A stretch of 64,000 bases of DNA from assembly GCF_014189535.1 (NCBI RefSeq), contig NZ_CP050305.1, positions 62,001 through 126,000 on the forward strand, written 5' to 3'. Made by a program: the position numbers and the translations under genes. Below are positions 52,015 to 58,757 of the stretch, piece after piece. The stretch comes from Rhizobium lusitanum. Lineage in GTDB: Bacteria; Pseudomonadota; Alphaproteobacteria; Rhizobiales; Rhizobiaceae. The notes beneath the pieces are model-generated. The model was not told where the DNA came from and did not search any database. It saw only the letters and a program-made list of their open reading frames with translations. How positions within the stretch are numbered: the first letter of the stretch is position 1; the number at the start of each line of letters is the position of its first letter.

Positions 52015-52018
52015 ATAA

Positions 52019-52107
52019 GGATCTTATCCCGAGCCCGAGACTATGCCGATCAGGCTGCCTAAGCCTCGGGATTTCCGGTAAGAAACGCCGCATCGGCTCG
52101 GCATAGT
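52019..52107 (+). repeat. RIT left inverted repeat, 89 bp
   Basis: Identical in all 89 positions to the reverse complement of 55429-55517. It contains CTATGCCGA and its inversion TCGGCATAGT, probable recombinase-binding cores. It encodes the peptide MPIRLPKPRDFR and a stop on the plus strand, the same words that end dnaE2 at the other repeat. Confidence 0.93.
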
Positions 52108-52144
52108 ATTCTGCCCTCCTTGCAACAATGCAAAGGAGATCAAG

Positions 52145-55428: not shown

Positions 55429-55517
55429 ACTATGCCGAGCCGATGCGGCGTTTCTTACCGGAAATCCCGAGGCTTAGGCAGCCTGATCGGCATAGTCTCG
55501 GGCTCGGGATAAGATCC
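55429..55517 (-). repeat. RIT right inverted repeat, 89 bp
   Basis: Exact inverse of 52019-52107. It overlaps the last codons of dnaE2 on the minus strand and provides 'GSYPEPETMPIRLPKPRDFR' and the TAA stop at 55455-55457. Thus the terminal repeat is also coding sequence for the host gene. Confidence 0.93.
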
Positions 55518-58500
55518 CTTATGCCGAACTCGGCATAAGGGATCGACGATATCCCGCGCCCGTGGCCCCTTCGGAAACCCGCGCGGATCCGGCACCGGCG
55601 ACCCATGATGAAACTCATCCCCTCGCCCATGCGGCAGCGGAAAGACAGCATCACGATCCCCAACACTTGCCAGCTCCGCCGACAGATCACTCAGCCGATG
55701 TGCCACAAGATGCACAACCTCCCCTTCCCGCTGAATGCGGCCATAAACACCGATCATGCCGGCGCCCAGCACGACACGGCGGTATTTCTCGAAGGTCTTT
55801 AGCCAGACAACGAGATTGGCGATGCCGCTCTCATCCTCGATGGTGATGAACATCACACCCTTGGCGGAACCCGGCCGCTGGCGAACGAGCACGAGGCCGG
55901 CGGCCTCGAGCCATGTGCCATCGCGGGCCTGCATCGCATCGCGGCAGGTGACAATACGGCGCTTCGCCAGATCGGCGCGCAGGAATGAAAGCGGATGGTT
56001 GCGCAAGGTCAATCCGACATGGCCGTAGTCCTCGACCACCTCGCCGCCTGATGTCATCGGCCTCAACGTGACCGTCGGCTCATCGAGCTCCGGCACGGTC
56101 TCGTTTTCGCGGGCGGATGCGGCCGCAAACAGTGGTAGCGGCTCGTCCCGCAATGCCTTGATCGCCCAGAGCGCCTCGCGCCTGGCAAGTTTCAGCGACG
56201 GCTGGAAGGCATCGGCTTCGGCGAGTTCAACCAGCGAGGCTGCCGGCACACCGGCACGGCGCCAGAGATCATCGACCGAGGCAAAAGGTTGGTCGGCCCG
56301 CGCCGCGACGATTGCCGCGGCATCGGCATTGGCAAGCCCCTTGACCATCCGCAGACCAAGCCGCACGGCAAACCGCTCTTCGTCACCCGTCGGCTCGAGC
56401 GTGCAATCCCAGCGGCTGGCGTTGACGCAGACGGGGCGCACCTCGACGCCGTGATCGCGTGCATCACGAACAATCTGGGCTGGTGCGTAAAAGCCCATCG
56501 GCTGGGCATTGAGGAGAGCGGCGCAGAAGACGTCGGGATGCCAGCATTTCAGCCAGGAGGAGGCATAGGCGATCAGGGCGAAGGAGGCCGCATGGCTTTC
56601 CGGAAAACCGTAGCTGCCAAACCCTTCGAGCTGCTTGAAGGTCTTTTCGGCAAACCCCTGCTCGTAGCCATTCTCCACCATGCCGGAGATGAGTTTTTGG
56701 CCGAACTTGGAAACGCCGCCAGTATGCTTGAACGTTGCCATGGCGCGGCGCAGCTGATCGGCCTCGCCCGGCGTAAAACCGGCGCATTCGATCGCCACCC
56801 GCATCGCCTGCTCCTGGAACAGCGGCACGCCGAGCGTCTTGCCGAGCACCTTCTCCAGCTCGGGCTTCGGATAGACGACCTTCTCCTTACCCTCCCGGCG
56901 CCTGAGATAGGGATGCACCATGTCGCCCTGGATCGGGCCGGGTCGGACGATCGCCACCTCGATGACGAGATCATAGAAGGTGCGCGGCTTGATGCGCGGC
57001 AGCATCGACATCTGCGCCCGGCTTTCGATCTGGAAGGTGCCAAGCGTGTCGGCCTTCCTGATCATCGCATAGGTACGCGGATCCTCGGGCGGGATGGTGG
57101 CAAGATCGAGAGTAATGCCCTTGTGCTGGCCAAGAAGATCAAAGCCCCGCTTCATGCAGGAGAGCATGCCGAGCGCCAGGCAATCGACCTTCATGAACTT
57201 CAGGATGTCGATATCGTCCTTGTCCCACTCGATCACCTGCCGCTCAGTCATGGCCGCCGGCTCGATCGGCACAAGCTCGTCGAGACGGTCACGGGTGAGC
57301 ACAAAGCCGCCGGGGTGTTGGGAGAGATGGCGCGGGGCGCCCATCAGCTGCCGGGCAAGTTTTAGCGTCAGGCGTAGGCGCCGATCGCCCAGATTGAGAT
57401 TGAGCTCCTTGGCGTGCTGTTCGCCAACGTCCTCGCCCCAGCCCCAGACATTGGAGGAAAGCATCTTGGTCATGTCCTCCGGCAGGCCGAGCGCCTTGCC
57501 GACATCGCGCACTGCTCCCTTGGAGCGATAGCGAATGACGGTCGAGCATAGTGCTGCGTGATCGCGACCATAGGTCTCGAACACCCATTGCATGACAATC
57601 TCGCGCCGCTCGTGCTCGAAATCGACATCGATATCCGGCGGCTCGCGACGCTCCTCGGAAACGAAACGCTCGAACAGCAGGTCGTTGATATCAGGGTCGA
57701 TCGAAGTGATGCCGAGCACATAGCAGACAGAAGAATTGGCAGCCGATCCCCTGCCCTGACAGAGAATGTCCTTGGATCGGGCAAAGCGGACGATCGAGTT
57801 CACCGTCAGGAAGTATGGCGCATATTGCAGCCTCTCGATCAGCCGCAACTCGTGCTCGAGGTTCTTGCGCACCTTGTCCGGCAATCCCTCCGGATAGCGC
57901 CAGGTGGCACCCTCCCACGTCAATTGCTCCAATGTCTGCTGCGGCGTCAGTTCCGGATGGGCGCGCTCCTCCGGATATTGATAGGCAAGCTCATCGAGCG
58001 AGAAGCGACAGCGCTCCATGATTTCGACGGTGCGAGCAAGCGCTTCCGGATAGCGAGAAAACAGCCGCGCCATTTCTTCCGGCGGCTTCAGATAGCGATC
58101 GGCATGCCGTTCCCGCCGAAAACCGGCATCGTCGATGGTGACGGTGTGGCGAATGCAGGTGACGACGTCCTGCAGGATGCGCCGCTCCGGCACATGAAAC
58201 AGCACGTCGTTGGTGACGACAGTGGCAACACCCATGGCCACCGCCATATTCGACAATTCGTGCAGGCGCATCTGGTCGTTCGGCCGGCGGCGCAGCGTCA
58301 GCGCCAGATAGGCGCGGTCGCCAAAAGCCTCGCGCAGGCGACGCAGGTTGAGAGCACAGGTGTCATCTGCCTGGTCGGGGAGGAAGACCGCAATCAGTCC
58401 CTCGCCATAGGCAACGAGATCGGTCCAATCGAGCCGGCATTTCGCCTTGCCGCCGCGCTTCTTGCCAAGCGACAGCAGCCGGCAAAGCCTGGCATAGGCG

Positions 58501-58757
58501 GGCCGGTCCGTGGGATAGACGAGTACGGACATGCCATCCGTCAGATCAAGACGACAGCCGACGATCAGCCGGACGCCGGTGTCCCTGGCGGCCTGATGGG
58601 CGCGCACGATGCCGGCGAGACTGTTACGATCGACGATCGCCAAAGCCTCGATGCCAAGCTCGGCTGCTTGCGCGAACAGTTCCTCGCAGGACGAAGCGCC
58701 GCGCAGGAAGGAAAAATGCGAGGTCACCTGCAGCTCGGTATATCTCGGGCATGTCAT
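55455..58757 (-). CDS. dnaE2: Error-prone DNA polymerase DnaE2 (ImuC), with substituted C-terminus
   Basis: A 1100-residue C-family polymerase for damage-induced mutagenesis. The N-terminal PHP domain ('ELQVTSHFSFLRGASSCEEL') is followed by the palm with 'PPDIDVDFEHERREIVM' and 'DIDILKFMKVDCLALGM', then helix-hairpin-helix and OB-fold regions. The start MTCPRYTEL overlaps the imuB stop (ATGA). The last about 30 residues are not native: the RIT end replaces LHLDAIKVKTRDFR with a tail ending LPKPRDFR. Catalytic parts are intact, so activity may persist. Confidence 0.93.
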   Translation of the reverse strand: MTCPRYTELQVTSHFSFLRGASSCEELFAQAAELGIEALAIVDRNSLAGIVRAHQAARDTGVRLIVGCRLDLTDGMSVLVYPTDRPAYARLCRLLSLGKKRGGKAKCRLDWTDLVAYGEGLIAVFLPDQADDTCALNLRRLREAFGDRAYLALTLRRRPNDQMRLHELSNMAVAMGVATVVTNDVLFHVPERRILQDVVTCIRHTVTIDDAGFRRERHADRYLKPPEEMARLFSRYPEALARTVEIMERCRFSLDELAYQYPEERAHPELTPQQTLEQLTWEGATWRYPEGLPDKVRKNLEHELRLIERLQYAPYFLTVNSIVRFARSKDILCQGRGSAANSSVCYVLGITSIDPDINDLLFERFVSEERREPPDIDVDFEHERREIVMQWVFETYGRDHAALCSTVIRYRSKGAVRDVGKALGLPEDMTKMLSSNVWGWGEDVGEQHAKELNLNLGDRRLRLTLKLARQLMGAPRHLSQHPGGFVLTRDRLDELVPIEPAAMTERQVIEWDKDDIDILKFMKVDCLALGMLSCMKRGFDLLGQHKGITLDLATIPPEDPRTYAMIRKADTLGTFQIESRAQMSMLPRIKPRTFYDLVIEVAIVRPGPIQGDMVHPYLRRREGKEKVVYPKPELEKVLGKTLGVPLFQEQAMRVAIECAGFTPGEADQLRRAMATFKHTGGVSKFGQKLISGMVENGYEQGFAEKTFKQLEGFGSYGFPESHAASFALIAYASSWLKCWHPDVFCAALLNAQPMGFYAPAQIVRDARDHGVEVRPVCVNASRWDCTLEPTGDEERFAVRLGLRMVKGLANADAAAIVAARADQPFASVDDLWRRAGVPAASLVELAEADAFQPSLKLARREALWAIKALRDEPLPLFAAASARENETVPELDEPTVTLRPMTSGGEVVEDYGHVGLTLRNHPLSFLRADLAKRRIVTCRDAMQARDGTWLEAAGLVLVRQRPGSAKGVMFITIEDESGIANLVVWLKTFEKYRRVVLGAGMIGVYGRIQREGEVVHLVAHRLSDLSAELASVGDRDAVFPLPHGRGDEFHHGSPVPDPRGFPKGPRARDIVDPLCRVRHKGSYPEPETMPIRLPKPRDFR
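55513..55544. repeat. Palindrome at the RIT right boundary
   Basis: GATCCCTTATGCCGA and its complement TCGGCATAAGGGATC flank a two-base centre, giving a 32-base palindrome. The core TTATGCCGA resembles CTATGCCGA found in both RIT repeats. It appears only at this end, so it may be an extra recombinase site or a duplicated half-site. Confidence 0.8.

Follow-up and report, generated by a model that had tools for sequence, protein, structure and literature searches.

A RIT lineage at the 3' end of dnaE2 with a nearly palindromic attachment site that appears to encode a substitute C-terminus in either orientation

In a 64,000-nucleotide stretch of Rhizobium lusitanum DNA (contig NZ_CP050305.1, positions 62,001 to 126,000; hereafter the window, with coordinates counted from its first base), the frame of the error-prone polymerase gene dnaE2 (imuC) runs into a RIT element and ends within the terminal repeat of that element. 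This raises the question of how a putative mobile element comes to supply the last codons of a protein gene, and what becomes of the gene. We propose, with a probability of roughly 83%, that the element belongs to a RIT lineage that specialises in dnaE2 and has a nearly palindromic attachment site, from which a substitute C-terminus is encoded whichever way the element is oriented.

The element (52024..55538, unstranded; 3,515 bp, comprising arms, ritABC and a 20-bp palindrome) consists of three tyrosine recombinase open reading frames (ORFs) between two inverted arms. The genes ritA (52145..53377, 410 aa), ritB (53374..54294, 306 aa) and ritC (54291..55289, 332 aa) lie on the plus strand, all match Pfam PF00589 and are joined by an ATGA overlap at each of the two junctions; the ORF list between the arms contains no fourth gene. 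The left arm, as delimited by a repeat finder (52019..52107, plus strand), and the right arm (55429..55517, minus strand) are 89 bp each and form a 100% inverted match. The right arm serves as the 3' end of dnaE2, and the plus strand of the left arm encodes YPEPETMPIRLPKPRDFR-stop, an unused copy of the tail. From the right arm toward dnaE2 follow, all unstranded, a 6-bp internal spacer (55513..55518; GATCCC on the plus strand, Asp-Pro), the palindrome TTATGCCGAACTCGGCATAA (55519..55538), which lies outside the arm on the dnaE2 side and reads LCRVRHK in frame, and a 6-bp overlap (55539..55544; GATCCC in the dnaE2 sense). A second 6-bp overlap, also unstranded, is found outside the left arm (52018..52023; GATCCT in the dnaE2 sense).

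The dnaE2 gene itself (55455..58757, minus strand) encodes 1,100 aa from the ATG used here; it is native down to 55545 and then continues through overlap, palindrome and spacer into the arm-encoded tail. It matches the NCBIfam model NF004225 for an error-prone polymerase with 1405.5 bits (cut-off 939), in agreement with Pfam, and adjoins a gene that Pfam assigns to the impB/mucB/samB family. As the initial annotation had stated, the frame enters the right repeat and stops inside it (...RARDIVDPLCRVRHKGSYPEPETMPIRLPKPRDFR-stop, ending in PKPRDFR-stop). The native end, DPYLHLDAIKVKTRDFR-stop, was likewise correctly placed beyond the opposite, left end of the element, but it is not contiguous there: an IS66-family insertion sequence recognised by IS66 models (49227..51992, plus strand; 2,766 bp) splits the displaced tail after LHLDAIK and is bordered by an 8-bp target duplication, CCTTGATC (49219-49226 and 51993-52000). 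The two parts of the displaced 3' end thus lie on the minus strand at 51993..52017 (TATCTGCATTTGGATGCGATCAAGG) and 49196..49226 (..KVKTRDFR-stop, including one copy of the IS66 duplication), and both the native and the arm-encoded tail finish in RDFR, as had been claimed. When the RIT and IS66 elements are both left out, the dnaE2 flanks read GPRARDIVDPYLHLDAIKVKTRDFR-stop, the same end as in the homologue P0001. The frame is therefore restored as anticipated, although the junction is not 55542 joined to 52014 but the 6-bp overlap (55544-55539 and 52023-52018). At this site, the uninterrupted relative Rhizobium rhizogenes pC5.7c reads GATATCGTC-GATCCT-TATCTGCAT, which matches the overlap on the displaced-tail side.

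Is this arrangement peculiar to one insertion? An alignment search of genome contigs with RitA returned 242 relatives, of which the best 80 were kept; together with six plasmid loci picked from 212 records, they gave 86 loci, 78 of which have the order ritA-ritB-ritC on one strand. Arms of the same type stood at dnaE2 or at its displaced tail in 12 of the 86 loci, bearing out the expectation that related elements would share the target; with the two copies of the R. lusitanum genome, this makes 14 dnaE2-type RITs. The 12 loci are L007 (Ancylobacter), L009 (Geminicoccaceae), L011 (Agrobacterium), L014 (Mesorhizobium), L022, L035 (Shinella), L041 and L043 (Rhizobium), L042 (Novosphingobium), L060 (Metarhizobium), L070 (R. 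johnstonii pRL11) and L074 (R. leguminosarum), among which L022, L035, L041 and L070 were assigned from arm and displaced tail alone, and L074 has only about 40 codons upstream. Wherever borders are visible they agree, and the insertion is precise. The dnaE2 side reads ...R[DN][IML][YFV], 6 bp, palindrome, spacer and arm, and the far side has the arm and another 6 bp, after which DLHID.LK.KSRNF[HQ]-stop follows in most cases. In frame, the palindrome gives LCRxRH[KN]. In 14 of 16 cases the dnaE2-side overlap specifies x-Pro, and the internal spacer, when reversed, does so in 15 of 16 (exception L109) and, by eye, also in L113, as expected if the spacer were the imprint of an earlier dnaE2 target; that of the window (55513..55518) looks like such an imprint. 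Relative to dnaE2, four of the 14 elements are parallel and ten antiparallel. Read-through during the SOS response was considered as a general driver of rit expression and rejected, given the ten antiparallel elements.

The dnaE2-type elements also group by descent. Their 14 rows form one side of one branch in an 81-row RitA tree (SH-aLRT 99, quick method) that left out four loci with short RitA pieces as well as L013, L063 and L083, where no element end is visible; in an earlier, careful tree of 84 rows they fell into a clade of 17 (support 100/99) together with these three loci. No dnaE2-type tail was found in the other 67 RitA rows, an arm being recognisable in 26 of them. RitA of three plasmid members is 48, 44 and 38% identical to that of the window, so the association between RIT and dnaE2 looks old. 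The exact arm pattern was found in 4 of 394 genomes of the family, the R. lusitanum genome included, and R. ecuadorense (L114) has an uninterrupted dnaE2 end only. L013 (80% RitA identity) could not be used as a test of the closest relative, since its left end is missing. A chance match was ruled out by the second copy and the related elements. The broader idea that every RIT carries a tail matched to its target found no support, as other RIT arms are nearly unconstrained in the same frame and the tail occurs in none of the 26 arm-bearing loci. In addition, four other RITs (L018, L036, L050 and L055) seem, from translated flanks inspected by eye, to lie in IS66 transposase-like frames, some with the layout palindrome, spacer and arm.

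What the swap does to the gene is a matter on which two accounts diverge. One possibility is that insertion inactivates or cripples DnaE2, the RDFR end being a residue of past selection and the gene decaying afterwards. Five of the 16 dnaE2 genes joined to a dnaE2-type arm are indeed broken (L005, L074, L102 and L104 have short frames, and L108 is long but has its tail frameshifted), and the entry of IS66 into the displaced tail of the window would fit such decay. The other 11, from several genera, are full length with the tail in frame, some of them beside mere remnants of an element (L105 and L107): stop-to-stop frames of more than 1,100 codons leading into the tail are found in the window, L007, L009, L014, L043, L101, L105, L106, L107 and L109 (n = 10), the frame of L009 reaching the end of its locus, and L011, cut by its locus, is open over 1,112 codons in its record. 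L105 to L109 were fetched owing to the polymerase annotation of the arm match; without them, seven of 11 genes are full length and four broken. The strong constraint on the tail itself, described below, also argues against loss of function, and we regard inactivation as unlikely. Most likely, DnaE2 still functions after the swap and the insertion does next to no harm.

To gauge what the tail preserves, we examined DnaE2 ends in 120 proteins listed from 8,000 scored; the filter applied to these ends itself required Arg at -4 and Phe at -2. The end R[DNEG]F[RK] is present in 115 of these 120, with Lys at -6 in 108 of the 115. In agreement with the idea of a replaced end, 113 of the 120 terminate in R-x-F-[RK] without the RIT peptide, two (P0020 and P0040) are of the RIT type and five end otherwise. 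The pattern K.R[DNE]F[RK] closes 105 of the 113 native proteins and 12 of 13 RIT tails (L109 has Arg for Lys), and hence the K-x-R-[DN]-F-[RK] ending of the native protein is retained in the RIT tail. DnaE2 is described, in the portion of the source considered, as devoid of a C-terminal domain, with protruding tails that are mostly unstructured (PMC3919608), and binding of DnaE2 has been assigned to the C-terminal region of ImuB in the corresponding portion of another report (PMC6511836); as a guess, the DnaE2 tail might be the partner of that region.

Substitution patterns were compared in 13 arms that follow a dnaE2 frame, 12 of them distinct in sequence. In this set, L102 and L104 follow gene fragments; it leaves out L005 (arm identical to that of the window), L060 (site of L101), L074 and L108. 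Over the last seven codons, the proportion of synonymous differences (pS) is 0.62 and that of nonsynonymous differences (pN) 0.086, giving a pN/pS of 0.14, compared with 2.34 and 2.97 in the shifted frames. Variation falls mainly on third codon positions, and TAA, TAG and TGA are all found at one shared stop position. None of 2,000 column permutations of the set was as conservative as the data (shared descent uncorrected). Over the last ten codons, pN/pS is 0.31 in the 13 arms versus 0.85 in 36 distinct arms with the general RIT motif, the latter giving 1.04 and 0.95 in shifted frames. By these sequence measures, the tail evidently evolves as a protein and is kept by selection on the protein; for this reason, a function of the tailed DnaE2 is probable.

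These data also bear on the view that the likeness of the tails is DNA homology and nothing else, the arm having captured a dnaE2 3' end or meeting a need of the recombinase site, with the peptide irrelevant. The arm does adjoin the core, where a recombinase binding region is plausible, and arms of the same layout in other RITs encode unrelated peptides. Moreover, 16 currently unused arms show as much constraint as the used ones (pN/pS 0.27 versus 0.31 over 18 codons), so present use alone does not suffice and either turnover of the used arm or homogenisation of the arms must be assumed. Against this view, the crossover maps to the 6-bp overlap, outside the arm, and a requirement at the DNA level would not account for the third-position variation, the interchange of three stop codons, the low pN/pS, the permutation result or the weak constraint on other RIT arms. 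We consider an explanation by DNA homology very improbable.

The second copy in the same genome addresses how the two orientations arise. It lies in locus L005 at 8300-11797 (G000:C3:41299-44796) and is identical to the window copy at 3,498 of 3,499 bases, the single difference being a one-base deletion that frameshifts ritB. It occupies the same site of another dnaE2, which is broken: only a fragment was found in the stretch, its frame is shifted just ahead of the site, and it lies in a frame joined to an integrase-like one. Over 723 nt, the dnaE2 DNA that flanks the copies has 89.35% identity, compared with 99.97% for the elements, so the RIT arrived much more recently than the two dnaE2 genes split. 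Although the copies have opposite orientations with respect to dnaE2, the gene runs into an identical tail in each, since either arm encodes this tail. On the ritABC strand, the palindrome has AC at its centre in both copies, even though it is located at the ritC end of one copy and at the ritA end of the other, which fits a single palindromic circle junction usable at either core and not an inversion between arms. It is hardly credible that the copies derive, in place of two site-specific insertions, from homologous recombination of the dnaE2 genes with each other and a later inversion at the 89-bp arms: perfect inverted arms could flip the inner part, but the palindrome should then stay unchanged in the dnaE2 sense, whereas its centre in that sense differs between the copies (GT versus AC), and the 6-bp overlaps are swapped too, between flanks far less alike than the elements. 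In both copies the ritA side shows GATCCT, the 6-mer of the empty relative, and the ritC side shows GATCCC (n = 2; native 6-mers of both host genes assumed), a polarity that resembles the fingerprint and footprint rule of SE elements, by which the target 6-mer goes to the intA-proximal border and the spacer of the circle to the distal one, although with two copies the likeness is only suggestive.

Besides the broken genes and the constraint on unused arms, several points weigh against a lineage specialised on dnaE2. The permutation test ignores shared descent among the tails. Two of the 16 upstream overlaps encode Val-Arg instead of x-Pro. L013, L063 and L083 show no element end from which a target could be read, and labelling the 84-row tree with L063 wrongly in and L042 out required four changes. 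The left arm of L060 is unrecognised, the right arm of L070 is not joined to dnaE2, and the comparison with an empty site at the DNA level covers one site, that of R. rhizogenes pC5.7c. Furthermore, in the part of the literature considered, the mobility of RITs is still to be demonstrated and their ends are poorly defined (PMC3414803).

How could one element serve dnaE2 in both orientations? We infer a circular intermediate, the roles of the recombinases and the mobility of the element. The target would be 6 bp spanning two codons just ahead of the last 14-15 codons of dnaE2. RitA, RitB and RitC would form a circle in which the arms are joined via the palindrome, so that its attachment site would be a nearly perfect palindrome with two equivalent cores of approximately 10-6-10 bp, each about CTCGGGATAA-N6-TTATGCCGA. 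One core would recombine with dnaE2 through a 6-bp staggered exchange of the central N6. Whichever core is used, the dnaE2 5' part would lead into the overlap and then, with the reading sense unchanged, into palindrome, spacer and arm, and only the orientation of ritABC and cargo would differ. As both arms encode the same tail, dnaE2 would gain a C-terminus ending in K-x-R-[DN]-F-[RK]-stop, and its native end would come to lie beyond the other side of the element. With a spacer reversed from NNNCCN, no stop can arise in this frame, and the path into the tail thus stays open.

Several dnaE2-type RITs carry arsenic or copper genes. In L009, the region from ritC to the far arm contains arsC and arsH along with genes for an aquaporin and a regulator, and Metarhizobium L101, at the same site as L060, has ACR3, ArsH, ArsC-like and ArsK genes between ritC and the dnaE2-side arm, its far arm being unrecognised. 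In Novosphingobium, L113 is a 17.5-kb island with a CusA/CzcA-type permease and a CusB-like protein (under its cut-off), and in Ancylobacter two arms 12 kb apart, alike at 84 of 84 bases, enclose heavy-metal ATPase, PCu(A)C, SCO and cation-diffusion genes. The cargo of L011 comprises dienelactone hydrolase, short-chain dehydrogenase/reductase (SDR) and AraC genes; its segment 2650-12306 contains two displaced native dnaE2 ends and three arms, which indicates at least two stacked events, and stacked or composite insertions may explain how cargo was captured there. In L102 (6472-10624), two arms at a dnaE2 fragment surround genes that by eye are oxidoreductase-like; no rit genes were found there, and the island was possibly mobilised in trans. 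L105 (10048-10824) and L107 (10048-10486) are miniature remnants in which a full-length tailed dnaE2 precedes two arms separated by only about 0.75 and 0.4 kb, respectively.

Solo arms were also seen. One lies in L110 at 5001-5081 (pTi-SAKURA 37012-37092) with the displaced native dnaE2 end DLHIDTLKIKSRNFH-stop, and another in L111 at 8001-8086 (pAtC58) with DLHINTLKVKSRNFY-stop; no dnaE2 is annotated in either stretch. Both are probably fossils of earlier insertions. An arm query matched 140 plasmid records, 78 of them from Agrobacterium (60 of the 140 listed). Separately, L112 (R. johnstonii pRL10 43825-61916) is a rearranged mutasome locus, where imuA is followed by a 5-kb stretch devoid of annotated genes and then by an IS91 transposase, a recombinase and a two-armed RIT.

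Taken as a whole, it seems reasonably probable that this is a RIT lineage of single origin with a self-complementary coding attachment site, which gives dnaE2 the same selected C-terminus whichever way the element or a cargo island enters. Islands with metal-resistance or catabolic genes, minimal derivatives that lack recombinase genes, and stacked insertions would then all have a low-cost dock in the dnaE2 3' end, and K-x-R-[DN]-F-[RK] would stand out through the swap as the portion of the DnaE2 end that has to be retained. Plasmid-borne polymerases of the C family are few, and about two thirds of them are DnaE2, according to the part of the survey considered (PMC3919608); dnaE2, often plasmid-borne here, is tied by this lineage to islands that carry arsenic, copper and catabolic genes. 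RITs are present in many bacteria, and the exact borders, the 6-bp exchange site and the defined target make transposition directly testable. The lineage further illustrates how a symmetric, two-ended element may repair a protein gene in both orientations, and the tail swap amounts to a natural swap experiment on a conserved, unexplained protein end.

Phage-type integrases that enter the 3' ends of genes, for example those of e14 and phage 21 at icd, bring a replacement for the coding end. These phages do so at one end and in one orientation, whereas the RIT of the window has the tail at both ends. Other elements, such as GInts at ssb, are already known to provide or conserve the 3' end of a gene, and plasmid SOS polymerase genes such as rulB are known insertion hotspots; in the literature searched we found no description of a dnaE2-bound RIT lineage with coding, orientation-independent arms, although an earlier mention is possible. 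GInts, in the portion of their description considered, have three integrases plus ginD; several of them lie at the end of ssb, where the attL overlap leaves the product unaltered, or they change a C-terminus, and they carry cargo as well, at 2.5-70 kb (PMC5385486). They differ in their four genes and imperfect direct repeats of 10-17 nt, and long symmetric arms and dnaE2 go unmentioned in that portion (PMC5385486); the window element, with three genes, lacks the ginABCD operon. SE elements also have 6-bp spacers, which in their case act as fingerprint and footprint, as well as inverted-repeat ends and few targets, but their genes are intA-CDS2(tfp)-intB-CDS4(srap), their repeats are imperfect (13-19 bp), and no substitute coding tail is described in the sections considered (PMC10214605). 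The set intA-tfp-intB-srap is unmatched in the window, where three recombinase genes and no further long frame fitting it lie between the arms. The integron-like elements of rulB share three predicted site-specific recombinases, cargo and a plasmid-borne SOS polymerase gene as target, but by the part of the account considered they insert 123 bp into rulB, interrupt the gene and generate a 3-bp direct repeat (PMC4542609). RIT elements themselves have been described, in part of one source, as inactivating radC or the IS66 tnpA (PMC2864759). Like the window element, they have three overlapping tyrosine recombinase genes, a length of about 3.5 kb, terminal inverted repeats with a palindrome and several copies per genome (PMC3414803, PMC2864759); unlike the RITs portrayed in the parts of these sources considered, the dnaE2 lineage has two arms that both encode a gene-specific replacement tail, and some of its members carry cargo.

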